Shown here one piece after another: positions 9,440 to 38,729 of a DNA stretch of 64,000 nt. The stretch lies in NCBI GenBank assembly GCA_016278485.1, contig JADQBT010000003.1:62001-126000 (forward strand), read 5' to 3'. Numbering within the stretch: the first letter of the stretch is position 1; each line of letters begins with the position of its first letter. The position numbers and the translations under genes were made by a program. The notes beneath the pieces were generated by a model. That model worked only from the letters and a program-made list of their open reading frames with translations, did no database searches and was not told the DNA's origin. Source of the DNA: Halanaerobiales bacterium. Lineage in GTDB: Bacteria; Bacillota; Halanaerobiia; Halanaerobiales; Halanaerobiaceae.

Positions 9440-9495
9440 TAATATCTCACCTCCGAAAGTCAAACCTACAAAAATCGACAAATGACGACAATAGT

Positions 9496-9758: not shown

Positions 9759-10517
9759 TTAATCTTCATCAACAAAGGCTACACAACGGCCGATACTTGA
9801 CTCAAGATCGACACCTTTCCATGGGAAGAAACCAACTTTACAACGTTTGTTGAGAAGTTTATCAATCTCTCCACCAAGGTTTTCAGCGTGAATAATGCCT
9901 TCTGGGAATAACTTTGTATGCATAAATTGTCTACTCTCTGGATGAGAGAAAACTTCTTCTAATGAAGCACCAAGATGTTCTTCACATTCTGCTGCTAAAT
10001 CAGGACGTAATTTTTTACATACTGTATTCATTGGGTGATCTGCAGAACCACAATCAACACCAATCCACTTAATTTTCTTTTTCTTTGCCCATTCGCTAAA
10101 TTCATAATTAGGACCAGGATGCTTCATGAAATATCTTTCTTCATCAGCTTCTGGCTGATCCCAAGCATATTTGTGGTAACCAGTATTAATAATTAGGATA
10201 TCGCCTTCTTTAACATCTACCCTTTCTTCTACCATTTCAGAAGTATAAATATCGTAATCTCCTACTGCATCACTTAAATCAACGATTACAGCATCACCAT
10301 AAAGATCTTCTAACGGAATACTAGCCATATCGCGACCGGCAGTCCAGAAGTGTCTTTCACCATCAAGATGAGTACCAATATGGTTACTAGTTTTGATAAT
10401 TTGACCATTAACTCTTTCAGTTGAAAGACGCTTGAAATATTTCAGTTCAAGTGGCTCATAAGTTGGCCAAGGTGGAGTTGAAACACCAATAGGTTGTGTT
10501 AAATCATAAAGTTTCAT
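9759..10517 (-). CDS. Cyclase-family metal-dependent hydrolase (KynB-like fold)
   Basis: A 252-residue member of the cyclase/arylformamidase family, metal-dependent amidohydrolases acting on formyl-amide or cyclic amide bonds. The metal motif HxGTHxDxxxH is present as His46, His50, Asp52 and His56. A tryptophan-degradation role is unlikely because no such genes are near. It is the last gene after fdrA/allF and the DUF1116 gene, 17 nt downstream of the latter, and just before the xdh operon. This position suggests ring opening or hydrolysis of a ureido or amide intermediate in nucleobase breakdown. The exact reaction is inference. Confidence 0.85.
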   Translation of the reverse strand: MKLYDLTQPIGVSTPPWPTYEPLELKYFKRLSTERVNGQIIKTSNHIGTHLDGERHFWTAGRDMASIPLEDLYGDAVIVDLSDAVGDYDIYTSEMVEERVDVKEGDILIINTGYHKYAWDQPEADEERYFMKHPGPNYEFSEWAKKKKIKWIGVDCGSADHPMNTVCKKLRPDLAAECEEHLGASLEEVFSHPESRQFMHTKLFPEGIIHAENLGGEIDKLLNKRCKVGFFPWKGVDLESSIGRCVAFVDED

Positions 10518-10534: not shown

Positions 10535-11959
10535 TTAAATTTTATCATTATATTTTTGAGCAAATGCCCTTAAGGCCTTTTTAAAACATGCAACTGGTGG
10601 ATCTACCAGACCAGCACCGATCTGACCAATGCCTGGCTCTTTATGTGCTATACCCGTGTTAATTGTTGGTAAAATACCAGTTTCGATAATTTTTCTTAAA
10701 TCGATACCTGTTGGAGTACCGCGGAAACTAAGTGTAGGAATTGTGAAATTCTGATTCTCATCTAAGGTAATTTCATACATATCTTTGGTAAATTTAATAG
10801 AATCATCAACTGTACCTCCAACAAATCCAACGATAGCTGGAGCAGCAGCCATGGCAAATCCACCAACTGCCGCAGTCTCAGAAATAGTACTATCTCCAAG
10901 ATCTCGACAGGCATCTTCTTCACTATAACCTGGGAAGTAGAGACCGTCAACTTTCTCTGCTGGAGCAGTAAACCATTCTCCTTCAAGTCCACTAATTCTA
11001 ATCCCAAAATCTACACCATTTCTAGCCATTGCTGTAATAACCGTACTATATTCAATCCCATCAGCAGCATCCATAGTTGCTTTAGAAGCAGGCATGGATA
11101 AGTTAAGATAGAAATGTTCATTACCACCCATGAACTCAATTATTTCTTTTAAATCTTCATTTGAGTAATCAGTTTGTAGTAAGTAAGGAATAATCTCTCT
11201 CATAAATAATGAGGTAGCAGCCTTATTACGATTATGAACTTCATCACCCATATGCAGAGCTTGAGCAGTTATGTTTTTTAAATTAATACCATCAGATTTA
11301 GCGAGAGCATCTCCAAGTGCTGGACCAAGAATTTTTTCCATCCACTTTAATTTTTCAATTACATCTGATCCATTTGCACCAAAACGGAGTACTTTTCCTA
11401 AACCTTCATTCAAAGTACAATATGCTTTATTTCCATATGTTTTATTTTCAACAATCCAGACTGGCATTGATGGAGATACAATACCCGTCATTGGACCAAC
11501 AGCATTGTGATGGTGAGCAGCATCAAATGTTACTTCACCTGATTCAATTAATTTTACAGCTTCTTCTTCATCTGCAGCCCAGCCTTCATAAATACATGCT
11601 CCAATAGCAGCACCTTGCATAGGACCAGACATGTTATCCCAAGTATTTGGAGGTGAAGCATGAAGAATCATTTTACCTTCCATACCTGGCAAATCTTTAC
11701 CCGCAACACCTACTCCAATTAATACTGGATCACTTTTTTGTATTTTTTCTACAGCTTTTTTATTTGCATCATCAATTTTTTCAGATTCTACCTCATCAAG
11801 TAATTTGGCCATTTTTTCATCGCCACCAGCAGGTGGACGCCAATCTACCTGAACTGCATCAAAACCTTCACCTTTCAAGTTTTCTGCAAATGATTCAAGA
11901 CCAATATTAATAACCTTCAGTTCTTCTTTAAATAGTTCATGTAGTTTTTTATCTGTCAT
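10535..11959 (-). CDS. allG: DUF1116 protein, AllG (YlbE)-like carbamoyltransferase subunit
   Basis: A 474-residue DUF1116-family protein, the usual size for E. coli YlbE. The motif-rich segments MSGPMQGAAIGA (about 130-141), DAAHHHNAVGPMTGIVS (about 170-186) and NTGIAHKEPGIGQIGAG near the C terminus are typical. In E. coli, FdrA, YlbE and YlbF have been described as the oxamate carbamoyltransferase complex AllFGH, which splits oxalurate to oxamate and carbamoyl phosphate. Here the AllF homologue lies directly upstream (15-nt gap) and an AllH homologue is in the same gene run. No other allantoin-pathway enzyme is visible, so the substrate may be another N-acyl urea. Confidence 0.85.
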   Translation of the reverse strand: MTDKKLHELFKEELKVINIGLESFAENLKGEGFDAVQVDWRPPAGGDEKMAKLLDEVESEKIDDANKKAVEKIQKSDPVLIGVGVAGKDLPGMEGKMILHASPPNTWDNMSGPMQGAAIGACIYEGWAADEEEAVKLIESGEVTFDAAHHHNAVGPMTGIVSPSMPVWIVENKTYGNKAYCTLNEGLGKVLRFGANGSDVIEKLKWMEKILGPALGDALAKSDGINLKNITAQALHMGDEVHNRNKAATSLFMREIIPYLLQTDYSNEDLKEIIEFMGGNEHFYLNLSMPASKATMDAADGIEYSTVITAMARNGVDFGIRISGLEGEWFTAPAEKVDGLYFPGYSEEDACRDLGDSTISETAAVGGFAMAAAPAIVGFVGGTVDDSIKFTKDMYEITLDENQNFTIPTLSFRGTPTGIDLRKIIETGILPTINTGIAHKEPGIGQIGAGLVDPPVACFKKALRAFAQKYNDKI

Positions 11960-11974: not shown

Positions 11975-13525
11975 CTAATTAATTCCAGAAAGAATTTGAC
12001 TAGCTACACGAACAGCCTGCACGTTTGTGGGGAGAACTTTAGCCCCAGCTTTTCGGAGCTTTTCTTCCTGCATATCTAAATTCTGTGGATCTTTATCAGT
12101 ACCACAAACAGAAGCTATTACAGAAAGGTAGCCACCACGATCAGCAACTGTAGCTTTTGCTTCTTTGATAGCTTCAGCAACTTCGCCAGCAGGGTCCATA
12201 TGCGAACCATAGCCAATTACCACATCTATTAAGATGACACCAACCTCTTCATCTTTTGCTTCTTCTAATAATCTTTCAGATCTCATATAAGGTTCAATCA
12301 TTGGATGTGGCTTTCCTTGAGTAAAATCGTCTTCGCCAAGATCAATTACTGTGTTTTCTATACTTTTTAAATCTTCTTTTAATCCATAACCCTCAGAAAT
12401 AGGGATATTAGAATACATATCACCATATTCATTGGTTAGCTGAATTAAAGCTTCACTACAGAGTGTCCCACCTGTATAAAGTCCGCGTAGATATTTTTGC
12501 TTAGAATTCATATTACTTGTTTCTTCTTTCACAATCTCTTCAATCTCTGATTGACTCATACCACCAGCAGCAACATCTTCACCTTTAATAATTCCTACAG
12601 CTTTAAATGCACCATCTTCTAAAGTATTAGCCCAGATAGCATCTGTACCTTCTACTACAGATGGATCTCCTCCAAGGAAATTAACTACTATTGGTTTTTT
12701 TATCTTTTTAACTTCTTCCATGATTTTCTCAGCAGCCTCTTTAGCCGGTGGCTTAGAAACCAAGACAATTACTTCAGTATCATCATCTTGAGCAAGTGCC
12801 TTTAAATCTTTAATCATCTCAATACCTTTTACTTTAGACTTTAAATCACGACCACCAGTACCAATTACCTGTGATAAGCCAACACCCTGGCGATCTACCA
12901 GACTGGATACTGCTTGAGCACCTGTTCCGGAAGCAGCTACAATACCAACTGGACCTTTGCTTACTACATTAGCGAAGGCAAGTGGAGCTTGATTTACAAT
13001 TGCTGTACCACAATCTGGTCCCATCAATAATAAATCTTTTTCTACTGCAAGTTCTTTAAGTGCAATTTCATCTTCTACAGGAACATTATCACTGAAAAGC
13101 ATAACATGTAAACCATTATTTAGAGCTTTACGTGCTTCACGTGCAGCAAACTGACCTGGAACTGAAATAATTACCAGGTTTGAGTCTGGCTGTGCTTCAA
13201 TAGCTCCTCTTAATGTGGAAGGTTTTTCTTCCGCTTTTCCCCCTCCAGCATTTTTCTTTTCTGCCATCAAGGTTTTGGTAGTTTCAATTGCTTCATCTAA
13301 TACATCTTCTTCACCATCTACTACAATAACTAAATCATTAGCATTGGCAGCTTCGGCTTCTGGTAAAAGCAAATTAGCTTCTTTTAAGATACCTTTATTG
13401 GCATCTGTACCCATAACTACTACAGCTTCTGTTATACCATCTAAACTTTTAACGTCTTTAGCCACAGACATTAAAGTTACAGAATCATAGTATGTTCCCT
13501 CTTTTACAAATACTTTTTTAGCCAT
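11975..13525 (-). CDS. allF: FdrA/AllF family protein, succinyl-CoA-synthetase-like
   Basis: A 516-residue protein of the FdrA family, whose fold resembles succinyl-CoA synthetase alpha and beta parts. Visible features are the Rossmann-like N-terminal region, the phosphate-type loop GPDCGTAI (about 170-177), VAASGTGAQAVSSLVDRQG (about 196-214) and GTGGRDLKSKVKG. Start ATG 13525 has a good AAGGAG site. In E. coli this is the AllF subunit of oxamate carbamoyltransferase; here it is followed by AllG and cyclase genes. It is separated from the upstream gene by a 150-nt gap containing a hairpin. Confidence 0.87.
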   Translation of the reverse strand: MAKKVFVKEGTYYDSVTLMSVAKDVKSLDGITEAVVVMGTDANKGILKEANLLLPEAEAANANDLVIVVDGEEDVLDEAIETTKTLMAEKKNAGGGKAEEKPSTLRGAIEAQPDSNLVIISVPGQFAAREARKALNNGLHVMLFSDNVPVEDEIALKELAVEKDLLLMGPDCGTAIVNQAPLAFANVVSKGPVGIVAASGTGAQAVSSLVDRQGVGLSQVIGTGGRDLKSKVKGIEMIKDLKALAQDDDTEVIVLVSKPPAKEAAEKIMEEVKKIKKPIVVNFLGGDPSVVEGTDAIWANTLEDGAFKAVGIIKGEDVAAGGMSQSEIEEIVKEETSNMNSKQKYLRGLYTGGTLCSEALIQLTNEYGDMYSNIPISEGYGLKEDLKSIENTVIDLGEDDFTQGKPHPMIEPYMRSERLLEEAKDEEVGVILIDVVIGYGSHMDPAGEVAEAIKEAKATVADRGGYLSVIASVCGTDKDPQNLDMQEEKLRKAGAKVLPTNVQAVRVASQILSGIN

Positions 13526-14673: not shown

Positions 14674-15804
14674 TTAAGCGAAAATGGACATCATAACACC
14701 TGCAGCAACCGCTGAACCAATTACCCCTGCTACATTTGGTCCCATGGCATGCATTAATAAAAAGTTAGACGGATCTGCTTTTTGACCCTCTTTTTGTACA
14801 ACTCTAGCTGCCATCGGTACAGCCGAAACACCAGCTGCTCCAATAAGCGGGTTAATTTTACCACCAGATAATCTGTGCATTAATTTACCAAGTAACAACC
14901 CAGCAGCAGTACCAATTGCAAAAGCAATCACACCTAAGAACATGATTTGCAAAGTTTTTACCTGTAAAAATTTATCTGCTGATGCACTAGCACCGACAGA
15001 AATTCCCAGAAAAATAGTAACAATGTTAATAAGAGCATTTTGGGCTGTTTCACTCAAACGGTCTACAACACCAGATTCTTTAAAAAGATTACCCAACATC
15101 AACATCCCAATTAATGGTGCAGCCGGTGGTAGAATTAAAACCACAATTACCGTTACAATAATTGGAAAAAGAACTTTTTCTTTTTTAGAAACCGGTCTAA
15201 GTTGTTCCATTCTAACCTGACGTTCTTCTTCTGTAGTCAACCATTTCATTATTGGAGGTTGAATAACCGGAACAAGTGCCATATAGGAATAGGCAGCTAC
15301 TGCAATTGCACCCAAATACTCAGGTGCCAATTGTGAGGCAAGATAAATTGCTGTTGGTCCATCTGCCCCACCAATTATTCCAATCGGGGCAGCTTGATAC
15401 CCGGCAAAACCAAGTAATATTGCTCCAATAAAAGTAATAAATATACCAAACTGAGCAGCAGCTCCTAAGAGTAAACTTTTGGGATTAGCAATTAATGGTC
15501 CAAAATCTGTCATTGAACCAATCCCAAGAAAAATTATCGGCGGAAAGATACCAAGTTCATCTCCAAAATAAAAATATCTTAATAGACCTGCAGGTTGACC
15601 ATTAGCGGCATGTGCCATTAAGCCTGTCAAAGGAAGATTTACAAGCATCATTCCAAAAGCAATCGGTACTAACAGCAAAGGTTCATATTTCTTCACAATA
15701 CCCAGATAGAGTAGAATAAAGGAAATTAAAAGCATCACTATGTGACCCCATTGTAATGCTGCAATACCTGTTTCATTAAGGAAATCTATAAATACGTTTA
15801 ACAA
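14674..15804 (-). CDS. mmdB: Na+-pumping decarboxylase beta subunit (OadB/MmdB/GcdB family)
   Basis: A 376-residue integral membrane protein with about nine to eleven helices, the Na+-translocating subunit of biotin-dependent decarboxylases. It releases CO2 from carboxybiotin and moves Na+ outward. Diagnostic segments are [19 protein letters not shown] (around 113-131), the [16 protein letters not shown] loop containing the functional Asp (around 143-158), and [19 protein letters not shown] near 325-343. TTG start at 15804 with AAGGAGGT eight nt before. Follows mmdA-oadG-biotin-carrier genes in one run, so the four subunits make a complete pump. Confidence 0.93.
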
Positions 15805-15827
15805 GTTACTGGACCTCCTTCAAAATC

Positions 15828-16244
15828 CTATTCTATTTCGATTAATACCGATCCTGAATCCACTTTATCGTTTGCACTAACATTTACGCTAGCAACTGTT
15901 CCATCGCCTGGAGCATAAATTTCATTTTCCATTTTCATAGCTTCCAGAACTAATAACAAATCACCTGAAGATACACTGTCACCTTCAGCAACTTTAACTT
16001 CTAATATCGTACCTGACATCGGTGCTGTAATACTTCCCGCACCAGATACAGCTGGTTGTTGTCTTTGTTTTTTAACAGGCCTTTTTTTAGGCGTTGGTCT
16101 TGGAGCAGGTTTAGAAGTTGGATTACTCTTTTCAACTACTGGTTCAGAATTAGTTGCTGAACTTGAAGTAGTTCCTCCACCTATTTCTTCCACTTCTACT
16201 TCATATTCATTTCCATTAACTACTACACGATATACTTTATTCAT
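15828..16244 (-). CDS. mmdC: Biotin carboxyl carrier subunit of the Na+-pumping decarboxylase
   Basis: A 138-residue protein: short N-terminal part (1-20), flexible Ser/Thr/Pro/Ala/Lys-rich linker (about 24-68), and a C-terminal biotinyl domain (about 70-138). The biotin-accepting lysine is Lys104 in the EAMKMENE motif. It carries CO2 from the carboxyltransferase subunit to the membrane subunit. Its start overlaps the end of the gamma subunit gene by 8 nt. Biotin demand here fits the BioY gene at 29914-30420. Confidence 0.95.
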
Positions 16245-16677
16245 GATCTACCTCCTTAAAAACTTTCACTAGATTATTGTTATTAATTCCACCACGGGCC
16301 ATTTTACCCCAGATTGGCACATTATCGCCACCAGTCCGTTTAATACTTCTTATTTTATAGCCACCAGAACTCTGATCAATATGATGTCTTAATGCAGCCA
16401 TAATTGAGGCCACAATCTCTTCCTCATACTCATCAACCGAGTCAGTAGTTGCCATTTTAGATTTATTAATTTTTGTAATTGAATGAGCTTCTTCCTTCAC
16501 TTCAAACTCTTCATAAAGAAACTTCTTCATCATTTTTAAAACAAACATCAACAGGATTAATATGAAGAATACAATTCCCATACCCAGCACAGCGACCTGT
16601 GAGCCAGCTATTAATTTCTGACCAACAGTCATGCTTTGACTTAAAGCTGGATCCTGCAATAATTCTAATGCTGTCAT
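16237..16677 (-). CDS. mmdD: Decarboxylase gamma/delta membrane subunit (OadG family)
   Basis: A 146-residue small subunit with one membrane helix (about 30-52, [20 protein letters not shown]) and a long cytoplasmic tail ending near [21 protein letters not shown]. OadG-type subunits assemble the soluble carboxyltransferase and membrane beta subunit of oxaloacetate and methylmalonyl-CoA decarboxylases. It lies between mmdA (43-nt gap) and the biotin carrier gene (8-nt overlap). Confidence 0.87.
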
Positions 16678-16720
16678 CGTTTGCAGACCTCCTTGCTTAT
16701 TATGTTAATATCTGACATTT

Positions 16721-18265
16721 TTAGAGTGGAATGTTACCGTGTTTTTTCTGCGGTCTATCTTCTCTTTTGCCGATGACAGATTCTAAAGCCATGATAACTC
16801 TCTTTCTGGTTTCTTCAGGTAAAATTACATCATCTACATAACCATCTTTAGCTGCCTGATATGGATTAGCAAATTTTTCACGATATTCTTCAATTTTCTT
16901 TGCTCTTGTTTCAGCAGGATCATCAGAGGCTTTAATCTCTCTTCTAAAGATAATATTCGCAGCACCACCAGGTCCCATAACTGCAATTTCGGCAATTGGC
17001 CATGCAAAAACATAATCTGCCCCAACATGCCTACTGCTCATAGCAATATATGCTCCACCATATGCTTTTCTTGTAATCACATTGATTTTTGGTACACTAG
17101 CTTCAGAATATGCATAAAGCAACTTAGCACCATGTCTAATTACTCCCCCATACTCTTGATCTACACCAGGTAAGTAACCAGGTACATCTGTTAATGTTAA
17201 AATTGGAATATTGAAAGCATCGCAAAATCTAATAAAGCGAGCAGCCTTATCAGATGAATCAATATCTAAACAACCAGCTTTAAACTTAGGTTGATTTGCA
17301 ACAATACCAACAGATCTGCCACCCATTCTTGCAAAACCAATAACAATATTTTTTGCAAAAAATGGCTGAACCTCAAAGAAATCCTGATCATCAACAATTT
17401 GATTGATTACATCTCTAACGTCATAAGGTTTATTAGGATTATCTGAAACAATTTCCCTTAACTCCTCAGCACTTCTTTCAAAAGAATCAGCTGTTTCTTT
17501 AACAGGAGCTCCTTCTAAGTTGTTGTTTGGAATAAAGCTGATTAGTTTTTTAATTTGATCAAAACAAGCTTCTTCATTTTGAGCCAAGAATTGGGCAACC
17601 CCACTAATTTCATTATGAGTCATTCCGCCACCTAATTCTTCTGCACTAACCTCTTCACCTGTTACAGATTTAATAACCTGTGGACCAGTAATGAACATCT
17701 TACTAGTATCATCTACCATAAATACAAAATCAGTAAGGGCTGGAGAATATACAGCACCACCAGCACAAGGTCCTAAGATTACAGAAATTTGTGGAATAAC
17801 ACCAGAATTATGAGTATTTCTACTAAAAATACCACCATAACCTGCTAGTGAACCCACTCCTTCTTGAATACGAGCACCACCTGAATCATTTAAACCAATG
17901 ATTGGTACACCAGCTTTAGCAGCCATATCCATAACTTTCCATATCTTTTTAGCATGCATTTCACCAAGTGATCCACCCATTGCTGTAAAATCCTGAGCAT
18001 ATACAAAAACATTTCTACCACCAATAGTTCCTTGCCCAGTTACTACACCTTCAGCTGGTATTTCTTTATCAGCCATACCCAGACTTTGAGCGTGATGTTC
18101 AACATACATGCCTATTTCTTGAAAACTTTCAGCATCTAACAGCGCGTCTATTCTTTCTCTGGCAGTCTTTTTGCCTTTAGCGTGCTGTTTTTCAATTCTT
18201 TTCTCGCCACCGCCAAGTTTTATCTTCTTGCGTCGTTCATGAAGATCTTTAATTTTTTCTTCCAA
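16721..18265 (-). CDS. mmdA: Acyl-CoA carboxyltransferase subunit, methylmalonyl-CoA decarboxylase alpha type
   Basis: A 514-residue crotonase-fold carboxyltransferase, matching methylmalonyl-CoA decarboxylase alpha and propionyl-CoA carboxylase beta in length. It has an N-terminal half with SGGARIQEGVGSLAGYGGIF (about 128-147) and GPCAGGAVYSPALTDF, and a C-terminal half with the DVPGYLPGVDQEYGG motif and AYGGAYIAMSSR. The adjacent biotin, gamma and beta subunit genes show it works as a Na+-pumping decarboxylase rather than a carboxylase. The acyl group (methylmalonyl, malonyl or glutaconyl) cannot be fixed from sequence; methylmalonyl is the closest look. TTG start, AAAGGAGG site. Confidence 0.9.
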   Translation of the reverse strand: MEEKIKDLHERRKKIKLGGGEKRIEKQHAKGKKTARERIDALLDAESFQEIGMYVEHHAQSLGMADKEIPAEGVVTGQGTIGGRNVFVYAQDFTAMGGSLGEMHAKKIWKVMDMAAKAGVPIIGLNDSGGARIQEGVGSLAGYGGIFSRNTHNSGVIPQISVILGPCAGGAVYSPALTDFVFMVDDTSKMFITGPQVIKSVTGEEVSAEELGGGMTHNEISGVAQFLAQNEEACFDQIKKLISFIPNNNLEGAPVKETADSFERSAEELREIVSDNPNKPYDVRDVINQIVDDQDFFEVQPFFAKNIVIGFARMGGRSVGIVANQPKFKAGCLDIDSSDKAARFIRFCDAFNIPILTLTDVPGYLPGVDQEYGGVIRHGAKLLYAYSEASVPKINVITRKAYGGAYIAMSSRHVGADYVFAWPIAEIAVMGPGGAANIIFRREIKASDDPAETRAKKIEEYREKFANPYQAAKDGYVDDVILPEETRKRVIMALESVIGKREDRPQKKHGNIPL

Positions 18266-18361: not shown

Positions 18362-19312
18362 CTACAAATCAATACGCATTTCATTAGTGATATACATGAA
18401 AATGGACCAAATTAATCCACTAAGCATATCTGAACCAGAACTACTTCCAATTTTTTGCAGGTTATAAGCAGAATCTCTTATTTCTGTCACATTATTATTT
18501 AATTTTTCTACCAATTTAATTAAATATTCATTATATCCACCTTCTGCAGCAGCTTGTAACTGTATGCCACTTTCAAATGTTGTTAAATTAGAAAAACTAA
18601 CTCTCTGCAAAAAATTACGGATAGTATAGTCAGGTGTTGTCATACCAATTTTCTCGCCACAGGCCCAGCCTGTTAAAAAATCATCTCCAGCTGGGGTCAA
18701 ACCAGGACCAAGACCAATTAATTTAATTAAGCACTTGTCTTTTTCACTTTTATCTTCTGCTACTAGAAAACTCTCTAAAGATTGCAAAGCAACTCGCAGA
18801 AGATAATTTTTGCTATTACTAGCCGAGTTACAATAAATAGTATTTCCTCGCAAGTAGTTATAAATTCCTCCCAGCCCTTCTAATGAACCATTTTCTAAAA
18901 GTTCCGCCAAAAGAGCATCTTTAAATATGCTTAGTTGGTGTTTATTTTCACAATGCTTATCTGCCACTTTTACTTGCGGGCAACTCTCCCACCCAACCGC
19001 CTCTGAAAAATCTAAGTGGATATTTTTAGCTGGAAAAATTATTTCTTTTTTAGTTAGTTTAACTTTCATGCCTGTCTTTAAAGCAAGTTTTTTTATACTA
19101 AAACGCGCATGACTCTTAATACGCAAATGATATGGTGCCATAATCACCGACTTATCTATTAAGGAAAATCCCAAATTATCATTTATCACTTTAATGTTTG
19201 CCACATGGTCAAAAACACTTTTGACTTCACATTCTATATCTTCAAGTACAGAAAGTTTATTTAATATAAAATCTCCTGCCTGATCAATTTTAAAGTCAAA
19301 CTCAAGTTGCAT
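18362..19312 (-). CDS. allH: DUF2877 protein, AllH (YlbF)-like carbamoyltransferase subunit
   Basis: A 316-residue protein with the DUF2877 signature GLGPGLTPAGDDFLTGW (about 198-214) and the C-terminal SSSGSDMLSGLIWSIF segment. E. coli YlbF (AllH) of this family is the third subunit of oxamate carbamoyltransferase with FdrA (AllF) and YlbE (AllG). All three homologues occur here, but allH stands apart, 1 nt after the pucR-type regulator and ahead of the decarboxylase genes. It is probably co-transcribed with both. No substitute function is evident. Confidence 0.85.
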   Translation of the reverse strand: MQLEFDFKIDQAGDFILNKLSVLEDIECEVKSVFDHVANIKVINDNLGFSLIDKSVIMAPYHLRIKSHARFSIKKLALKTGMKVKLTKKEIIFPAKNIHLDFSEAVGWESCPQVKVADKHCENKHQLSIFKDALLAELLENGSLEGLGGIYNYLRGNTIYCNSASNSKNYLLRVALQSLESFLVAEDKSEKDKCLIKLIGLGPGLTPAGDDFLTGWACGEKIGMTTPDYTIRNFLQRVSFSNLTTFESGIQLQAAAEGGYNEYLIKLVEKLNNNVTEIRDSAYNLQKIGSSSGSDMLSGLIWSIFMYITNEMRIDL

Positions 19313-19313
19313 T

Positions 19314-22825: not shown

Positions 22826-24061
22826 TTATAGCTCATCTGGATGTGGTAATACTTGATTAAGCACAATACCTACTAAAGCAGCAAGTGCCATACCTGCAAA
22901 TTCAAGATCCCACAGTTTTAGAGTAGCGCCACCAAGACCAAGCACTAAAATAGTAGCTGCAATAATCAAGTTTCTAGAAATTTTAAGATCTGTCTGGTTT
23001 TCTACAACTGTTCTGACACCAATAGCAGCAATCATACCAAAGAGTAAGATTGAAATACCACCAATAACTGGTTGTGGAATTGTTTCAATAAATCCACCCA
23101 ATTTAGGAACAAGTGCCAGAATAATAGCAAATGTAGCAGCAATTCTCATTACAAGCGGATCAAATACCTTTGTAAGAGCTAATACACCAGTGTTTTCACC
23201 ATATGTTGTGTTTGGTGGACCACCGAAAAGTCCAGCAAAAGCTGTTGCTAGACCATCACCAAGCATTGTTCTATGAATACCTGGGTCTTCAACAAACTCT
23301 GATCCTTTACCAACAGTATTACTAATTGCCAAGATATCTCCAACATGTTCAACCATTGAAACAATAGCAACTGGCGCAATAATGGAGATTGCTGTAAGAT
23401 CAAATTTAGGTACTGTAAATGCTGGTAAACCAAACCATGGCGCATTTATAATTGGGGCAAAGTCAACAATACCTGCCACAACAGCTGCCAGATAACCAGC
23501 AACTAAACCAACAATAACCGGTACAATTTTAAAGAATCCTTTTGCAAATACTGCAGCAATAGTTGCACCAAGCAGTGCAGTAGCTGCAACAATTACACCA
23601 GCCGCTCCAGTGCCAGAAGCTTGATCAATAGCAACCGGTGCAAGATTAAGACCAATTACCATAATGATTGGACCTGTAACGATTGGCGGGAATACACTTC
23701 TAATTAAACTAGGACCTATTTTATATATTAAAAAGGCCACAAGTGCATATATGATACCAGCAGCAATAATCCCACCTTGAGCAAATGGAATACCCTGCTT
23801 TTCTACTACCAATGCAATAGGTGCAATAAAAGCAAATGAAGAACCTAGATAAGCAGGCACCTTCTTCTTAGTAATAAAATGAAAAAGCCAAGTTCCTACA
23901 CCAGCAGTAAACAAAGCAACAGAAATATTAAGTCCAGTCAAGATAGGCACAAGAATTGTAGCTCCAAACATTGCAAAAGCATGTTGTAATCCTAATAAAT
24001 ACTTTTGAGTTGATGGAAGTTCATTAACATCCCATATACCCGGTACTTTTTTCTCATCCAT
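22826..24061 (-). CDS. NCS2-family nucleobase (uracil/xanthine) permease
   Basis: A 411-residue transporter with about 14 membrane helices of the uracil-xanthine (UraA-like, NCS2) family. N-terminal YLLGLQHAFAMFGATILVPIL is diagnostic, as is the central motif GDGLATAFAGLFGGPPNTTYGENTG (about 270-294), whose NTTYGENTG form is of the uracil type rather than the 'P.TTFSQN' urate/xanthine type. It would import a pyrimidine or purine base with H+ or Na+. First gene of the catabolic run; promoter at 24192-24220. The uracil-type motif supports a pyrimidine substrate. Confidence 0.92.
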   Translation of the reverse strand: MDEKKVPGIWDVNELPSTQKYLLGLQHAFAMFGATILVPILTGLNISVALFTAGVGTWLFHFITKKKVPAYLGSSFAFIAPIALVVEKQGIPFAQGGIIAAGIIYALVAFLIYKIGPSLIRSVFPPIVTGPIIMVIGLNLAPVAIDQASGTGAAGVIVAATALLGATIAAVFAKGFFKIVPVIVGLVAGYLAAVVAGIVDFAPIINAPWFGLPAFTVPKFDLTAISIIAPVAIVSMVEHVGDILAISNTVGKGSEFVEDPGIHRTMLGDGLATAFAGLFGGPPNTTYGENTGVLALTKVFDPLVMRIAATFAIILALVPKLGGFIETIPQPVIGGISILLFGMIAAIGVRTVVENQTDLKISRNLIIAATILVLGLGGATLKLWDLEFAGMALAALVGIVLNQVLPHPDEL

Positions 24062-28831: not shown

Positions 28832-28853
28832 TCAATAGAAAGGATGTGTACTC

Positions 28854-31370: not shown

Positions 31371-31418
31371 AAAAAGCCCTGACTTATTGATATATTTCTT
31401 TATCAATAAGTCAGGGCT
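31371..31418. terminator. Bidirectional terminator, yteA and second xdh operon
   Basis: A perfect 17-bp stem (31375-31391 with 31402-31418). The minus strand shows a U-run, so it mainly ends the second xdh operon. Confidence 0.88.
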
Positions 31419-31422: not shown

Positions 31423-31878
31423 CTATTTTACTAACTTTTTAATAGCTCGATAAATTGCTTCATAACCTGTGCATCTACAAAGATGTCCTCCCAAGGCCTC
31501 TTTAATATCTTCGTCTGTTGGCTCACTAGTCCTATTAAGAAGTGCCTGAACTGCCATCACAAAGCCTGGAGTACAATACCCGCATTGGACAGCATCCTCT
31601 GCTATAAAAGCCTCCTGAATAGGATTAGTCCCATCTGGGTTACTTAACCCTTCAATAGTGGTTACTTCACTTTTATCAGCTTCGACAGCAAGTACCAGAC
31701 AACTACGTACTGGTTCACCATCAAACAGCACTGTACAAGCACCACATTCTCCATTACCACAACCTTCTTTGGAACCAGTTAGATTAAGCTTTTCTCTAAG
31801 CATTTCTAATAAACTCATATAAGGAGGAACTGTCAGTGTATATTCTTTACTGTTAACTGTAATATTGATTTCTTGCAT
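31423..31878 (-). CDS. xdhC: Xanthine-dehydrogenase-family 2Fe-2S subunit (second copy)
   Basis: A 151-residue iron-sulfur subunit with CGNGECGACTVLFDG (about 41-55) and its closing Cys in VRSCL for the first cluster, and VQCGYCTPGF (about 98-107) plus LCRCTGY (about 133-139) for the second. It is clearly homologous to the 8109-8585 gene but diverged, so the two enzyme sets are old paralogues rather than a recent duplication. Last gene of its operon; gene order here is Mo-FAD-FeS, different from the first set (FAD-FeS-Mo). Confidence 0.95.
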   Translation of the reverse strand: MQEINITVNSKEYTLTVPPYMSLLEMLREKLNLTGSKEGCGNGECGACTVLFDGEPVRSCLVLAVEADKSEVTTIEGLSNPDGTNPIQEAFIAEDAVQCGYCTPGFVMAVQALLNRTSEPTDEDIKEALGGHLCRCTGYEAIYRAIKKLVK

Positions 31879-32748
31879 TTACTCACCCTCCTCTAATAAA
31901 CCAAGTTCTAGCAATGCTTGTTCTGTCAAATTACCAACCATTGCTTTCTTATAGGCGGGTTTAGCCCGAAGGCTAGATGAGCGTGGTGCGATACTATCAC
32001 TCAATTTTTCTTTAACTGAAACCAATAATTCATTAGTTATTTTTACCCCACTCAGCATTGTTTCAACTTCTTTGTTACGAAACGGTATTCTTGCCACAGC
32101 TCCCATTGCAATTTTCACTTCTCTTTTTTCAATATTTGCTGGATCTAAAGCAAGAACAGATACCCCTACGATTGCTAAATCCATCCCTTTCACACGACTT
32201 AAACGATGATAGCGACTTACCATTTTTTCATAATAAGGTAACCTAATGGCAGCTAATACTTCATTATCTTTTAAATCAACTTGATAAACATCCTGCCAAA
32301 ATTCATGAATAGGAATCACCCGGGTTCCATCTGGACCAATTACTTCTGCCTCTGCTGCCAGGACAAAAAGTGGTGTGCCAAATTCAGCACCTGGGGATGC
32401 ATGGACTATATTACCACCAATAGTCGCTCTATTCCTGATTTCCAGACAACCAAACGATTTCGCTGCATCATACAAAGCAGTATATTTTTCTCTAATAATT
32501 TTACTAGCCTGTATTTCACGAATAGTTGTTAACGCACCCATTCTAAGATAACCATCTTTTGTTTCTATCCCTCTAAAATTGTCTAATTTTTTTATATCAA
32601 TCAACATTTTATGGGGAGTAGTCTTTTCTCTTAATTTAAGCAAAAGATCAGTTCCTCCTGCCAAAATTTGTGCTTCGTTATTCTCATTTGTTAATTCAAA
32701 TAGCTCAGCCAACGTCTTAGGCGCATAATAATCAAATTTTTTAAACAA
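31879..32748 (-). CDS. xdhB: Xanthine-dehydrogenase-family FAD-binding subunit (second copy)
   Basis: A 289-residue FAD subunit with QILAGGTDLLLKLREK (about 31-46) and NRATIGGNIVHASPGAEFGT (about 104-123). It accepts electrons from the 2Fe-2S subunit. Its start overlaps the Mo-subunit gene by 8 nt, and its stop abuts the FeS gene. Confidence 0.93.
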   Translation of the reverse strand: MFKKFDYYAPKTLAELFELTNENNEAQILAGGTDLLLKLREKTTPHKMLIDIKKLDNFRGIETKDGYLRMGALTTIREIQASKIIREKYTALYDAAKSFGCLEIRNRATIGGNIVHASPGAEFGTPLFVLAAEAEVIGPDGTRVIPIHEFWQDVYQVDLKDNEVLAAIRLPYYEKMVSRYHRLSRVKGMDLAIVGVSVLALDPANIEKREVKIAMGAVARIPFRNKEVETMLSGVKITNELLVSVKEKLSDSIAPRSSSLRAKPAYKKAMVGNLTEQALLELGLLEEGE

Positions 32749-35074
32749 CTAAATCACCTGCTTTTGTCATTTCCATAAATACTTTTTCATTATAAATTGG
32801 TAGATTGAAAATTTCTATATTAAGTGCATCACTAATTGCATTACCCACAGCAGCAGCTATCCCTACTGTACCATGTTCTGCTATACCCCTAGCGCCAAAT
32901 GGTCCAATCGGTTCAGGTGTTTCAAAGAAATATACTTCCATCTTTGTTTCTGCAACATCTTCTGGAGTAGGTATTTTGAAATCTGTAAAGTTATTATTTC
33001 TCATCTTTCCATCTTCAGCATAGACTAACTCTTCTGTCAATGCGCCTCCTAGTTCCTGCACCATAGCACCAACTAGTTGGTTACGTGCTAACACAGGATT
33101 AATAACTTTACCAGCATCAAGTGCTGTGATTAAATTATGAACTGTAATTTCACCTGTGTTTTTATTAATGGAAAGTACAACTCCCTGAGCACCAAAAGTC
33201 CACTCGGCTGCACAATTCCCCTGGCCTGTTTCTGGATCAGGATGGGTCAGCTCAGGCGGAACATAGGTTCCATAAGCTTGGACAGGTTGGCCTAGTAAGT
33301 AACCATTCCCCCGCATATAACCAAAGCAGACTTCCTCTGTTGTTAATATTTTGTCTGGATCGCTCGACAGGTATAGCTTATTATCAGCATATTCTACCTC
33401 TGTAACAGCAACATCAAAAACAGCTGCTGCATTTGCTTTTAGCTGATCTATTGCTTTTTGTACAGCATCTAAGACAGCCATACCGCCTTTCCAGGAGGTG
33501 GTGCTACCAATAGTTTGCCAACCATAAGGAGAATTATCTGTACTAATATCTTCTTTAATTTTTATCCTCTCCAAAGGCAGCTCTAACCCACCTGCAGCTA
33601 CCTGCCGCATGGCTGTCTTTGTCCCTTGGCCCATCTCAACACCACTTACAGCCAGATCAACAGAACCACTTTCATTAAAGCGTAGCGTCGCTGAAGCTGC
33701 AGAATTAGTTGCCATCACAGGAGATTTCATCATAGCAGCCATGCCTTTACCATATACTAAATTATCAGTTTCTGCTGGTAATTCAATCTCTCCCAGCCTT
33801 TCTGCTACTTTATCAACACATCCTGCTAGATCTCCATTTTCTAATTCAATCTCTTGACCAAGTGCATTAATAGAACCAGGTTTTAGTAAATTTATCTTTC
33901 GTACTTTTAAAGGATCGATTCCTAATTCTTTAGCTATTAAATTAATTTGTCTCTCTTTTGCCCAGTGTACTTCAGGGTGACCATAACCTCTAAACGCCCC
34001 GACTGGCGGATTGTTCGTATATACTCCATAAGCATCTACTTCCATATTATCTATTTCATATGGGCCTGAACTATTATGGCCAGCTGCGGTAACTATATGG
34101 AGTGAGCAACTGCCATAAGCGCCAGAATTAAAATATATCTTCACTTTTTCTCCTAAAATTTTTCCCTCTTTTGAAACAGCTGTTTTTAACTCAACAGCAG
34201 CCCCTCTAGCTATGACTGAACCCGTAAAGGCTTCTTCCCGGCCCAAAGTTAGTTTAACATACTTACCTGGAACAAATCTAGAAATAGCAGCAAGCAATGG
34301 TTCAATTGTAACATCAGATTTTCCACCAAAACCGCCACCAAGATAACCCGCTTTGACTATAATGTTAGCTGGGTCAATAGCAAACATATCTGCAAGACAG
34401 GTTCTCACAAAAAAGGGCGACTGAGTACTAGAATACATCTCCATCTCACTCTCATTAGTCCAGAAGGCAATTGCTCCATGTGGTTCAATCTGAGTATGTG
34501 AACGATGTGGATAAACAAAAGAGTTCTCCAAAACTAGATCGGCTTTTTCAAAAATATCTTCTAACTTTCCTTTTCTTAGTTTATAATGAGAGAAAACATT
34601 TGTTCCTGCTGTAAAGTTTGTCTCACCATGTCTTTTATAATCTTCCTGTTTTTCATGTAAGATAGGACTATCTTCTTTCATTGCTTCTCTAGCATCTGTC
34701 ACGGCAGGTAATATTTCATATTCAACTTTAATTAAATCGACTGCTTCTGCTGCTTTCCATTTATCATCTGCCAACACAGCTGCTACTGGTTCACCCATAA
34801 ATCTTACTTTATCAACAGCAATAGGTTGCTGATCGCCAATATCAATATTAATTACTAAGTCTGCAACATCCTTACCTGTAATTATTGCTTCAATACCTGA
34901 TATTTTTTTTGCCTCACTAATATCAATCGAATTAATGAGGGCATGGCCATGCGGCGATCTTAAGATCACCGCATGGAGCATACCAGGGAAGGTAAGGTCT
35001 GCAACAAATTTAGCTTTGCCACTTGTTTTTTTCCTAGCATCAAGTCTTTCGCTAGGTTGTGGTATTGTTGCCAT
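32741..35074 (-). CDS. xdhA: Xanthine-dehydrogenase-family molybdopterin-binding subunit (second copy)
   Basis: A 777-residue Mo subunit starting MATIPQPSERLDARKK. ATG 35074 is chosen over a 15-codon longer frame because GGGGGT stands before it and the longer frame would overlap the deaminase gene. Moco motif AGYLGGGFGGKSD (about 240-252), and the C-terminal catalytic segment GARGIAEHGT. Four nt after the CodA-like gene, it probably hydroxylates the deaminase product or a related ring. Divergence from the first copy suggests a different substrate. Confidence 0.9.
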   Translation of the reverse strand: MATIPQPSERLDARKKTSGKAKFVADLTFPGMLHAVILRSPHGHALINSIDISEAKKISGIEAIITGKDVADLVINIDIGDQQPIAVDKVRFMGEPVAAVLADDKWKAAEAVDLIKVEYEILPAVTDAREAMKEDSPILHEKQEDYKRHGETNFTAGTNVFSHYKLRKGKLEDIFEKADLVLENSFVYPHRSHTQIEPHGAIAFWTNESEMEMYSSTQSPFFVRTCLADMFAIDPANIIVKAGYLGGGFGGKSDVTIEPLLAAISRFVPGKYVKLTLGREEAFTGSVIARGAAVELKTAVSKEGKILGEKVKIYFNSGAYGSCSLHIVTAAGHNSSGPYEIDNMEVDAYGVYTNNPPVGAFRGYGHPEVHWAKERQINLIAKELGIDPLKVRKINLLKPGSINALGQEIELENGDLAGCVDKVAERLGEIELPAETDNLVYGKGMAAMMKSPVMATNSAASATLRFNESGSVDLAVSGVEMGQGTKTAMRQVAAGGLELPLERIKIKEDISTDNSPYGWQTIGSTTSWKGGMAVLDAVQKAIDQLKANAAAVFDVAVTEVEYADNKLYLSSDPDKILTTEEVCFGYMRGNGYLLGQPVQAYGTYVPPELTHPDPETGQGNCAAEWTFGAQGVVLSINKNTGEITVHNLITALDAGKVINPVLARNQLVGAMVQELGGALTEELVYAEDGKMRNNNFTDFKIPTPEDVAETKMEVYFFETPEPIGPFGARGIAEHGTVGIAAAVGNAISDALNIEIFNLPIYNEKVFMEMTKAGDLVV

Positions 35075-35078
35075 ATTT

Positions 35079-36323
35079 TTACCCCCTAAATAGTTGAGAC
35101 TTTCTACTATTTTGTGCAATTATTTTTCCTTCTTTCATAACATATAGACAATCTGGCTGTAGTCTAATTGCATCTCTGGCAGTATACGCATCTAAAATAA
35201 CCAGATCTGCTCTTGCTCCAACTTTAATACCATAATCACTTAATTTTAAAATTTTCGCAGCATTATAAGTTGGCATATCAAATAGATACTCTATTTCATC
35301 AGGAAGAGTTAGTTGTGCAGCATGTGCTGTCACTAAAGCAACTTCCATAAGGTCACATTGTCCATATGGATAAAATGTATCTTTAACACAATCCTGGCCA
35401 TAACTTACATTAATATTTCTGGCCATCAATTCTTTAACTCTGGTGATACCTCTTCTAATAGGCTGGTTATCCTTTCTACCCTGCAAAACAAGATTTGTCA
35501 CTGGATTTGTTATCATATGAATACCTGCAGCCTTAACTTTATCCATTACATATTCTGCATAATGATCATCATAAGCAGCCAGTGCACAAGTATGGCCAGC
35601 AGTTACTCTACCTTCCCAACCATATTCGATAGTTTTATCTGCTACCATTTCTAGTGTTCGATAAAAAGGATCATCAGTTTCATCAACATGCATATCTATA
35701 TCTGCATCATATTCTTTGGCTATTTCAAAAGCTATCTCTACATGACGCAGACTGTCTGCAGGTGTCTTTTCGTTTGCTGGCATTCCTCCGACAATATCTG
35801 CTCCTTTTTCCATCGCTTCCCACATTAATTCTTCTGTTCCAGGATCCTGAATAATTCCTTCTTGCGGAAAAGATATAATCTCAATATCCATAATATCCTG
35901 ATATTTTTCTCTCGTTTTGATTAAGCCTTCCAATGGTAGCAGACCACCAATCGTATCTACATCGACATGGGTCCGCATTCTTGTTGTTCCATTTTTAACT
36001 CCCATTTCAATGGCTTTACCTGCTCTCTCAACAATATCATCAATAGTATAATTCTTCTTTTTATCCCAGATGATTTCAATTGCTTCCTTAAGCGTCCCTG
36101 ACTCATTTGCACGCACAACATCATCTATCATAGTCTTATCAAGATGAATATGCGGATCAATAAAAGCCGGGCTAACAAGCTTACCTGTTGCATCAATTAC
36201 TTTAGTTTGCTTATCGGATTCAATTTCCTCTGCTAACTCAATAATTTTTCCATCTTTAACTTTTATATCCCATTTCTGATAGTTTTTTTCTCGCAATAAA
36301 CAGTTCTTCAACAATAGCTCCAT
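35079..36323 (-). CDS. CodA-like cytosine deaminase-family amidohydrolase
   Basis: A 414-residue metal-dependent hydrolase of the cytosine/isoguanine deaminase group. Metal ligands and catalytic positions match E. coli CodA: His58 and His60 (DPHIHLDK), His212 with DETDD, His244 (TAGHT) and Asp311. The residue after this Asp is Cys312; in CodA it is Asp314, a substrate-preference position, and the preceding His is Gln. NLVLQGRKDNQPIRRGITRV is strongly CodA-like. It likely deaminates a pyrimidine or similar ring, but the changed pocket means cytosine is not assured. Between the transporter and the second Mo hydroxylase. Confidence 0.85.
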   Translation of the reverse strand: MELLLKNCLLREKNYQKWDIKVKDGKIIELAEEIESDKQTKVIDATGKLVSPAFIDPHIHLDKTMIDDVVRANESGTLKEAIEIIWDKKKNYTIDDIVERAGKAIEMGVKNGTTRMRTHVDVDTIGGLLPLEGLIKTREKYQDIMDIEIISFPQEGIIQDPGTEELMWEAMEKGADIVGGMPANEKTPADSLRHVEIAFEIAKEYDADIDMHVDETDDPFYRTLEMVADKTIEYGWEGRVTAGHTCALAAYDDHYAEYVMDKVKAAGIHMITNPVTNLVLQGRKDNQPIRRGITRVKELMARNINVSYGQDCVKDTFYPYGQCDLMEVALVTAHAAQLTLPDEIEYLFDMPTYNAAKILKLSDYGIKVGARADLVILDAYTARDAIRLQPDCLYVMKEGKIIAQNSRKSQLFRG

Positions 36324-36348
36324 AGTGTAAACCTCCTGAGGTCAAAAT

Positions 36349-37668
36349 TTATATATTTTTGTCAATTTTTATCGGCATCTGTGGATTGTCCATGTTATTA
36401 AATATATTTTGTACAATTGGCATAAATACTGCTGCACCAATAATACCATTTAACGGTGCAATACCAATACCTGCTCTATTACCTAAATAAGCAGCTAAAG
36501 TTCCTATCAGATAAGCGATAACAGCTGCCCAGCGTACTTGGGGGAATTCTACCTCATCAAGACGTGGTAACTTTCCTTTCCAGACAAAGAAGTAATCTCC
36601 TAAAATTACCCCACCAAGTGGTGGAATGAAAATACCTAACATAGTCAACCAGGAAATCAAATAATTATATATACCTGTTACAGCCAGTAATGTTGCAATT
36701 ATTACTCCACCAACAACAAAAGGTTTTTTGTTATTAACATTAAACAGTTCTGCACCAGCCACTCCAAAAGCATAAGCTGCATTATCATTAGTTGTCCAGA
36801 GATTAAGAGCCATTAAAATTACGCCCCAGAAAATGAGTCCCATTTTATAAAGAATCATCGCAAAATCGCCTTCTTGATAAGTTGCTGCACCAATAGCACC
36901 AAAGAATAACATAAGACCATTACCAATTAAAAATGCAATTAAAGCAGCCCAGAAAGCAGTTTTAGCATTTTTAGCAAAGCGTGTCCAGTTCGGAGCTTGA
37001 GTACCACCACTAGCAAAGGTCCCAACTATAACAGTTATAGCAGTTGCGATTGTCATTGTACCCGTTGGTTTAATTAAGGATAACTGACTCCAGCCACCAA
37101 CGTGCCCAACAGATTTAAAGGTAATCCAAGTACCAAGTATTAAGATCATTGGCACTGCGATATAACTTAAAATTTCCATGCCTTTGTAACCAAAATACGC
37201 GGTAATTCCCATTAATATACTCCAAAAAATCATAAGTGGAATAATATACTCTTCCCAGCCTACTGCCTGCGCAAAAAGATGAGCCATAGTAGCTGCTGTT
37301 ACACCATACCAACCAATTTGCGTACCACCTAAAATAATATCCGCCCATTTTGCACCAGCTTTACCAAGTGTATAACGACTCAACAAAACGGTTGTTAATC
37401 CAGTTCGAGCACCAATTACAGATAATAAGGCCACATAAAGTCCAAGGATTAAACTACCACCAGCCAAGACTAGGAAAAAATCAGGCCAAAAAGTAAAGGA
37501 AGCTCCTACTTCAGCCCCAGCCAGCATTGTCGGTCCAAAAAAAGTAAATCCTAAAAGTACTGCACTGATTGAAAAAATACTAACTCTTGCACTTTTGGGT
37601 ACATGTTCAAGCGGGTAATCATGGTCAAATCCCAATTTCTCTTCTACTACATTTTTATTTTCGCTCAT
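36349..37668 (-). CDS. NCS1-family nucleobase transporter (CodB-like)
   Basis: A 439-residue membrane protein with about 12 helices of the nucleobase-cation-symport-1 family. Recognisable parts are FTFFGPTMLAGAEVGASF near 41-58, GGTQIGWYGVTAATMAHLFAQAVG (about 114-137), NWTRFAKNAK and ALNLWTTNDNAAYAFGVAGAELF. These match the cytosine permease (CodB) branch. It lies 25 nt upstream of the CodA-like gene, giving a codB-codA-like pair followed by a Mo hydroxylase. Probably H+- or Na+-coupled. Confidence 0.9.
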   Translation of the reverse strand: MSENKNVVEEKLGFDHDYPLEHVPKSARVSIFSISAVLLGFTFFGPTMLAGAEVGASFTFWPDFFLVLAGGSLILGLYVALLSVIGARTGLTTVLLSRYTLGKAGAKWADIILGGTQIGWYGVTAATMAHLFAQAVGWEEYIIPLMIFWSILMGITAYFGYKGMEILSYIAVPMILILGTWITFKSVGHVGGWSQLSLIKPTGTMTIATAITVIVGTFASGGTQAPNWTRFAKNAKTAFWAALIAFLIGNGLMLFFGAIGAATYQEGDFAMILYKMGLIFWGVILMALNLWTTNDNAAYAFGVAGAELFNVNNKKPFVVGGVIIATLLAVTGIYNYLISWLTMLGIFIPPLGGVILGDYFFVWKGKLPRLDEVEFPQVRWAAVIAYLIGTLAAYLGNRAGIGIAPLNGIIGAAVFMPIVQNIFNNMDNPQMPIKIDKNI

Positions 37669-37958
37669 TTAAATACCTCCTGTTAGTTGTCTTCTAAAGT
37701 TTTCCTGTTTAGCAATGGAAATGACAATTTACTTTCTCCTCTTGGAATCACTTCCTCTCTTTAGCAAGAAAATTGATATTAATTTCATATTATGAATTTT
37801 GCATTATCTATTATGAATAATTCTTTAAAGATTTTAAGATTCCTGCTAAATTAGACTATAATAGTTTACAAATTTTTAATATTTTCATTATTTAGTTTAT
37901 ACAAAGAACAAAAAAACCCACCATCTCTGGCAGGTTAATTAGTTAATTTATCTCTTTT
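37669..37958 (-). promoter_or_regulatory. Intergenic region upstream of the codB-like operon, with IclR-gene terminator
   Basis: 290 nt. At 37915-37936 a 9-bp stem with two G-U pairs and a U-run (37908-37916 on the minus strand) ends the IclR gene. Further down, the motif TTCATAAT (minus strand) occurs twice about 23 nt apart around 37792-37825, a possible operator or weak promoter for the transporter operon. No gene is visible. Confidence 0.55.
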
Positions 37959-38729
37959 TTAGTATGATTTACCACTTAATGCTGCACCTATTTGGTTTGC
38001 CTTAGACAAAACTAATTTTTCTATATCTTCCATTTTATCATCTGTAAGTCTCATTGCTGGCCCAACGATAGACATAGTTGCTATTACTTGCCCATCTTTA
38101 TTAAAGATGGGAACTCCAAAAGCATTAATCAACTCTTCAAACTCCTCTTTATCTTCTGTAAAACCTCTTTCTTTACTTTTTTTCAATTGAGCAATTAGTT
38201 GATCTACATCAGTAATTGTGTTTCGCAAATAACTTTTCATCCCTGAATATTTTAATATTTCACGTACTTTTTCTTCAGGCATGTAAGCTAAAAAAGCTTT
38301 TCCAGCAGCTGTACAATGTAAAGGTACTCTGCGGCCAATCATTAAATATGCTTTTAACATCTTATCTGACTCTTCACCCAAGATACAGACTGCCTGTTCT
38401 TCCTCTCTAACAAAAATATTAGTAGTTTCTCCTGTTTCTTCAGAGAGTTCTTTAAGCAATGGGTAGGCCCGCAAAAAATAGTTTTTTGCTTCTCTATATT
38501 TTAACCAGACATTAAATAATTCTGGACCAATATCATATTTCTTAGAAGAAGAATTTTGGCTTACAAAACCCTCCATATTAAGTGTTTTTAACATATGATG
38601 AATAGTACTCTGATTATAACCAAATTCTTGTTCTAACTCAACGATTGATACTTCCTCATCTGCTACAGTAATATATTTTAATATTTTAAGACTTTTTTGT
38701 ACAGATTTAATAATTCCATTTTTGGCCAA
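37959..38729 (-). CDS. IclR-family transcriptional regulator
   Basis: A 256-residue regulator: N-terminal winged helix-turn-helix (about 8-70; VQKSLKILKYITVADEEVSIVELEQEFG, NQSTIHHMLKTL) and a C-terminal effector-binding IclR domain (about 80-250; LHCTAAGKAFLAYMPEEKV). IclR proteins sense small organic acids or ring-cleavage products. It is located between the EI gene and the codB-like operon on the same strand, with a terminator after it, so it could control the downstream deaminase/hydroxylase operon. Target is inference. Confidence 0.9.
   Translation of the reverse strand: MAKNGIIKSVQKSLKILKYITVADEEVSIVELEQEFGYNQSTIHHMLKTLNMEGFVSQNSSSKKYDIGPELFNVWLKYREAKNYFLRAYPLLKELSEETGETTNIFVREEEQAVCILGEESDKMLKAYLMIGRRVPLHCTAAGKAFLAYMPEEKVREILKYSGMKSYLRNTITDVDQLIAQLKKSKERGFTEDKEEFEELINAFGVPIFNKDGQVIATMSIVGPAMRLTDDKMEDIEKLVLSKANQIGAALSGKSY

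Follow-up and report, generated by a model that had tools for sequence, protein, structure and literature searches.

Organization and conservation of the operon

Within the window, as we term the whole stretch of 64,000 nucleotides analyzed here, five genes on the minus strand occupy positions 31423-37668. The first encodes a CodB-type NCS1 permease (36349..37668), which passes the cut-off of the cytosine permease profile PRK11017 (NF008241; 435 bits versus 326) and is predicted to import cytosine or a similar base. It is followed by a CodA-type deaminase (35079..36323) and by the three subunits of a molybdenum hydroxylase: the molybdenum-cofactor subunit, hereafter Mo2 (32741..35074; MoCoBD_1, MoCoBD_2 and Ald_Xan_dh_C), the FAD subunit (31879..32748; FAD_binding_5 and CO_deh_flav_C) and the 2Fe-2S subunit (31423..31878; Fer2_2 and Fer2). 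All three subunits match Pfam domains of Mo hydroxylases far above the gathering scores, and the ATG of Mo2, at 35074, lies exactly 4 nt past the deaminase stop. A strong intrinsic-terminator-like site (31375..31418, minus strand), with an 18-bp stem, an 8-nt loop and a T run, closes the operon. Upstream, an IclR-family gene on the same strand (37959..38729; Pfam IclR_C and HTH_IclR) encodes its probable regulator, and another terminator-like site (37915..37936, minus strand), a 9-bp stem followed by a T run, marks the boundary between the two.

The order IclR-CodB-deaminase-Mo-FAD-FeS is identical in three further genomes of the same taxonomic order (G021, G024 and G027), at 47-75% identity, and this recurrence argues that the arrangement is not due to chance. 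A genome from a different family of the same phylum, G136, has the operon split in two, with CodB in the opposite direction. The IclR gene adjoins the operon in all four of these genomes and at locus L008. The preliminary description had read the transporter, the deaminase and the Mo hydroxylase as one operon at these positions, and coordinates, strand, spacing, terminators and conservation all agree with it. It was also right that the gene order differs between the two hydroxylase sets of the window, Mo-FAD-FeS here and FAD-FeS-Mo in the first (9481-5779). Its picture left out the IclR regulator, a Cys-for-Asp change in the deaminase and the downstream enzymes encoded elsewhere in the window.

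The first gene cluster of the window

About 10 kb from the operon, a first cluster (5779-20993) comprises a Mo hydroxylase set, a cyclase, AllG, AllF, an orphan gene, a decarboxylase complex, AllH and a PucR-family regulator. The hydroxylase set (Mo1, FeS and FAD; 5779..9481, minus strand, as are the features that follow) is a candidate uracil dehydrogenase by virtue of its membership in Mo2's clade and the context of its relatives, which adjoin uracil permease, cyclase, AllFG, carbamate kinase and MmdA genes. Next to it lies a PF04199 cyclase-family hydrolase (9759..10517), for which we propose the opening of the barbiturate ring. AllG (10535..11959; PF06545, 329 bits), AllF/FdrA (11975..13525; PRK06091, 501 bits versus a cut-off of 433) and AllH (18362..19312; PF11392, 73.8 bits) bring all three subunit families of the AllFGH carbamoyltransferase into the window. 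A Na+-pumping (methyl)malonyl-CoA decarboxylase-type complex (14674..18265) has a beta subunit (TIGR01109, 524 bits), a biotin carrier, an OAD_gamma subunit and an MmdA alpha subunit that scores 885 bits against TIGR01117 (cut-off 999). Beside the cluster is a uracil-permease-like NCS2 transporter (22826..24061), with 407 bits against the uracil permease profile PRK10720 (cut-off 477) and 386 bits against the NCS2 profile (cut-off 292).

The carbamate kinase of this genome is encoded on another contig; in G018, G021, G027 and G132 it lies between the cyclase and the Mo1 set. No gene of the window was identified as encoding a malonamate amidase or an enzyme of CoA activation. The nitrilase-family amidase whose gene comes after the carbamate kinase in G136 (L187 12319-13200) is a candidate malonamate amidase. 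The orphan gene between AllF and the decarboxylase genes (13678-14406; 242 residues) belongs to no Pfam family, and its predicted structure (pLDDT 40) is unusable; it is conserved in G018, G021, G027 and L017 at 59-88% identity and is a candidate for a missing step.

A BMP-type nucleoside-like ABC transporter lies between the two clusters (25128-29768), and similar ones flank the deaminase in L018, L050, L070, L071 and L078. YqeC, a MobA-like NTP transferase and an XdhC-family gene stand within the uracil-type cluster of G136 (L187 3601-5739), which suggests a selenium-dependent Mo enzyme in that genome. YqeC was not found in the genome of the window, and a selenium-dependent cofactor was rejected there.

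The deaminase and its specificity position

The deaminase is a member of the CodA family as judged by profile, residues and predicted fold. Its best profile match is PRK07572 (402 bits, slightly below the cut-off of 438), and the metal-binding and catalytic residues of CodA are all present (H58, H60, Q154, H212, E215, H244 and D311). The AF2 model (pLDDT 93) most closely matches E. coli cytosine deaminase (3o7u; Z 55.3, rmsd 1.9, 410 residues), followed by a 5-methylcytosine deaminase (Z 54) and AtzC.

CodA in the strict sense has an Asp directly after the metal Asp, whereas this enzyme has Cys312. Cys at this position (CodA Asp315, Met-counted) is common to nearly all close relatives (most of those with at least 47% identity), and a second Cys, C246, close to the catalytic His244, is invariant among 29 aligned relatives. 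The Asp of CodA controls specificity: 5-methylcytosine deaminase carries a Ser in its place, and an Asp-to-Ala change gives CodA activity on 5-methylcytosine (PMC6186785). Because a Cys occupies the specificity position, plain cytosine is an uncertain substrate for the predicted deaminase, and 5-methylcytosine is a serious candidate. The base handled by the operon may be cytosine, 5-methylcytosine or another 4-aminopyrimidine.

Two characterized systems frame this assignment. E. coli CodBA consists of the same two protein families with the same fold, and its catalytic residues are all retained here. It differs from the present operon in the Asp at the specificity position and in having no Mo hydroxylase downstream; since such an enzyme follows the deaminase here, we take the operon to be catabolic rather than to serve salvage as in E. 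coli. The Klebsiella 5-methylcytosine deaminase (PDB 4r7w, 4r88) also has this fold (Z 54), at about 36% identity; its small specificity residue is Ser, compared with Cys here.

Two related molybdenum hydroxylases

In a tree of 54 Mo subunits, in which several references are long or partial and the outgroup placements are unsure, Mo1 and Mo2 fall into one clade of 28 rows (support 100/99). E. coli XdhA and XdhD, two Mo enzymes from a purine cluster of the same genome, nicotinate dehydrogenase, CoxL, KDH and 4-hydroxybenzoyl-CoA reductase all lie outside it. The nicotinate dehydrogenase entry, 3hrd_A (large subunit only), sits in the other branch of a 100/99 split. The Mo subunits of nicotinate dehydrogenase and 4-hydroxybenzoyl-CoA reductase are the nearest solved relatives of Mo2 by sequence, yet neither joins the Mo1/Mo2 clade. 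The preliminary description had proposed phylogeny against characterized enzymes as a check. The tree separates both Mo subunits from the xanthine/purine, nicotinate, CO and 4-hydroxybenzoyl-CoA enzymes; it has no uracil/thymine dehydrogenase reference, as no gene sequence for one was found in the literature searched. The operon hydroxylase is thus a candidate uracil/thymine dehydrogenase assigned from gene context.

The Mo, FAD and FeS domains, together with the motif GIAE at the position of bovine Glu1261, place this enzyme in the xanthine dehydrogenase family. It is not a xanthine dehydrogenase in the strict sense: Mo2 scores 481 bits against an XdhA cut-off of 780, belongs to a separate clade and has Ser and Ala at the equivalents of Glu802 and Arg880. 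Mo2 and Mo1 also differ from each other in the pocket: bovine Arg880 corresponds to Ala/Gly in Mo2 and to Arg in Mo1, and Phe914 to Tyr and Phe, respectively. The catalytic Glu is unchanged. These differences around a conserved Glu suggest that the substrate of Mo2 is related but probably not identical to that of Mo1, and Mo2 may not use uracil.

Mo2 belongs to a subclade of eight rows (100/100), each of which adjoins a deaminase gene. Three of these rows were found through the deaminase and four by the Mo search alone, so the unbiased linkage is that of four rows plus the window. Both Mo1 and Mo2 are present in G000, G021, G024, G027, G136, G151 and G153. G136 holds only these two Mo hydroxylases, Mo2 beside the deaminase and Mo1 within a run of UraA, AllH, FdrA, AllG, cyclase, carbamate kinase and amidase genes, all in about 30 kb. 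The most economical division assigns uracil to Mo1 and thymine to Mo2, but the genome of L007, where no clade member other than the deaminase-linked Mo enzyme was found, warns against certainty. The genome of the window encodes one more enzyme of the pyrimidine-type Mo clade, its third (L113 6374-10012, contig C17), near Mo-cofactor genes.

Neighbors of related deaminases

Eighty loci were found through the deaminase alone, and neighbors were counted within 7 kb. A Mo subunit occurs at 20 loci, AllF/G/H at 17, the PF04199 cyclase at 15, uridine phosphorylase at eight and uracil permease at six; nucleoside-type ABC transporters also recur. Three of the 80 loci, all from Chloroflexota/Dormibacterota, have a malonyl-CoA-synthetase-like gene. 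At L007, AllH, FdrA, AllG, cyclase, deaminase, permease and Mo genes form a single run.

Ring-opening genes of the AtzD/barbiturase family are present at 19 of the 80 loci. Five positions separate cyanuric acid hydrolases from barbiturase, whose signature is N195 H321 K325 V345 S/A346 (PMC3758960). Among the 17 readable sequences, those of 14 loci have N195, H321, K325 and V345 and a partial fifteenth has the first three, with Asp rather than Ser/Ala at position 346 in the signature-bearing sequences; those at L050 and L068 have cyanuric-acid-type residues. The four residues present in 14 neighbors, an independent line of evidence, point to barbiturate as the intermediate. A first count had found no overlap between cyclase and AtzD genes, but strict mutual exclusion was discarded, as L074 and L076 carry both.

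Other loci suggest variations. At L017 (466-2385), L019 (6953-8845) and L021 (6915-8810), AllG and the deaminase flank an aldehyde-ferredoxin-oxidoreductase-type enzyme; a cyclase is also nearby, and the flanked enzyme possibly replaces the Mo hydroxylase as the ring oxidase. L009, L011, L013, L015, L016 and L066 combine this type of deaminase with a PreA-like dihydropyrimidine/dihydroorotate dehydrogenase. Five of these six loci also have a Mo enzyme that clusters in the tree with one from a purine cluster, and we regard them as a different use of the deaminase type.

AllG, present in 25 of 151 relatives, was found in 29 of the 33 deaminase-bearing genomes and in 20 of 145 relatives without a close deaminase (Fisher p=4e-16). 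The association persists after dropping loci with adjacent AllF/G/H (p=2e-11) and among the relatives only (5/6 versus 20/145, p=5e-4); as the genomes share kinship and the set of 33 had been chosen by hand from the 80 loci, these p-values are guides rather than exact values.

A proposed oxidative route and its alternatives

From the observed gene content, conserved order, catalytic residues, clade membership and co-occurrence, we propose substrates, an order of reactions, and amidase and CoA-activation steps for a catabolic route. With a probability of roughly 70%, the operon is an IclR-controlled one in which a cytosine-type base is deaminated and its ring oxidized, the product then being broken down by the first cluster to yield ATP and a Na+ gradient. 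CodB would take in cytosine and/or a 5-substituted cytosine, and the CodA-type enzyme would deaminate it to uracil or thymine. The Mo-FAD-FeS hydroxylase would convert these to barbiturate or 5-methylbarbiturate, with water as the oxygen donor, and the PF04199 cyclase would open the ring to ureido(methyl)malonate. An AllFGH-type enzyme would phosphorolyze this product to carbamoyl phosphate and (methyl)malonamate, and carbamate kinase would use the carbamoyl phosphate to form ATP. The remaining acid would be activated to its CoA ester and decarboxylated by the Na+-pumping complex, malonyl-CoA giving acetyl-CoA. Genes are predicted for the whole chain apart from two steps, amide hydrolysis and CoA activation, where no certain candidate emerged. 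Several observations weigh against this reading: the Cys at the specificity position of the deaminase, the pocket differences between Mo2 and Mo1, the deaminase loci with other Mo enzymes or a PreA-like dehydrogenase, the cyanuric-acid-type residues at L050 and L068, the location of the carbamate kinase gene on another contig and the two gaps in the chain.

The chemistry from uracil to malonate and from thymine to methylmalonate has been described (PMC3758960, PMC7662398). The known oxidative pathway, comprising uracil/thymine dehydrogenase, barbiturase and ureidomalonase, has been reported in a few bacteria and ends in urea and malonate. The route proposed here shares its predicted intermediates, and barbiturase-signature enzymes adjoin relatives of the deaminase. 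It differs in the predicted replacement of barbiturase by the PF04199 cyclase and of ureidomalonase by an AllFGH-type enzyme with carbamate kinase, in the addition of a Na+-pumping decarboxylase and in its occurrence in an apparent anaerobe. AllFGH, the oxamate transcarbamoylase of anaerobic allantoin use, converts oxalurate to oxamate and carbamoyl phosphate (PMC11326118). Its three subunit families are those of the window, but their context here is pyrimidine-like, and by analogy the predicted substrate would be ureidomalonate, the product of barbiturase. An allantoin role was not favored, the best allantoinase-like match in the genome scoring 232 bits against a cut-off of 358. A hydroxymethylpyrimidine role, raised by CytX-like permeases at L007 and L008, was rejected, as these fall below the CytX cut-off and a 2-methyl ring is unfit for AllFGH chemistry.

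Malonyl-CoA, as well as methylmalonyl-CoA, is generally regarded as a substrate of MmdA-type decarboxylases. This bears on a narrower reading, in which the operon is specific for 5-methylcytosine and thymine: the deaminase would form thymine, Mo2 would be a thymine dehydrogenase yielding 5-methylbarbiturate, and Mo1 would be the uracil dehydrogenase. Such a module would explain why a second Mo enzyme is present and why the decarboxylase complex is of the methylmalonyl-CoA type. The Cys at the CodA position, by comparison with the Ser enzyme and the Asp-to-Ala variant (PMC6186785), the divergent pocket of Mo2 and the joint presence of Mo1 and Mo2 in the genomes listed above are consistent with it. 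However, pocket residues by themselves give no substrate, the decarboxylase may equally act on malonyl-CoA, and the only clade member found in the L007 genome stands beside a complete AllFGH-cyclase run. We consider this specificity somewhat unlikely.

A reversed order of reactions, with the Mo enzyme hydroxylating cytosine at C6 and the deaminase turning 6-hydroxycytosine into barbiturate, would fit the deaminase linkage of all eight Mo2 subclade members (four found by the Mo search alone), the Mo2 pocket and the altered specificity residue. It appears improbable, as most deaminase relatives have no Mo2-type gene nearby and no precedent was found in the literature searched.

The preliminary description had suggested an oxidative route for pyrimidines or for an unusual purine such as isoguanine. 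Neighborhoods, the barbiturase signature, the Mo tree and co-occurrence favor the first. Deamination of isoguanine to xanthine, followed by oxidation to urate, is very unlikely and was set aside as the main reading. CodA-type enzymes can use isoguanine, E. coli CodA being annotated as a cytosine/isoguanine deaminase, and the window includes a PucR-family regulator. Nevertheless, Mo2 stands apart from purine-type Mo enzymes in the tree, and a separate purine cluster on contig C9 of the genome encodes two Mo enzymes of its own, SsnA-like hydrolases, a xanthine-permease-like transporter and YgeW/YgeY-like genes. G136 has no further Mo hydroxylase, and the barbiturase, uridine phosphorylase and malonyl-CoA synthetase neighbors are non-purine genes. 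Equally remote is action on another amino ring (creatinine or the triazine ammelide) with the Mo enzyme incidental: the AtzC structure is nearly as close as CodA (Z 53 versus 55), hydantoinase A/B-type genes occur at L061 and L063, and two AtzD-family neighbors have cyanuric-acid-type residues, but 14-15 of the 17 readable ones have the barbiturase signature, uracil permease, uridine phosphorylase and malonyl-CoA synthetase genes are among the neighbors, and the CodB-type permease is conserved.

Described from a few bacteria in the 1950s, the oxidative pyrimidine route has been termed rare (PMC3758960), and the literature searched names no gene for uracil/thymine dehydrogenase, the enzyme of its first step. 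Nothing on an anaerobic version was found there either; as that literature was thin on subscription journals, this is weak evidence of novelty. The window and its relatives thus yield candidate genes for the breakdown of pyrimidines by this "barbiturate" route, of which little is known: candidate uracil/thymine dehydrogenases, a deaminase whose specificity residue is altered and a predicted energy-conserving ending. More tentatively, and with the odds leaning against it, the window may encode in full a so far undescribed way of fermenting cytosine/5-methylcytosine, uracil and thymine by anaerobic oxidation: Mo1 would serve as the uracil dehydrogenase and Mo2 as a separate thymine dehydrogenase, phosphorolytic carbamoyl transfer would provide ATP, and (methyl)malonyl-CoA would undergo Na+-pumping decarboxylation.

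Bacillota, Elusimicrobia and Hadesarchaea have parts of the gene set, and in Alphaproteobacteria the deaminase is accompanied by a barbiturase-type enzyme. This spread suggests that the oxidative pyrimidine route may be commoner than believed.

At the Hadesarchaea loci L031, L032, L037, L038, L043, L083 and L190, the deaminase adjoins AllF. The genome of L031 also has a Mo1-type enzyme (55%) near cyclase-, AllF-, AllG- and AllH-like genes, and the route may therefore reach the archaea.
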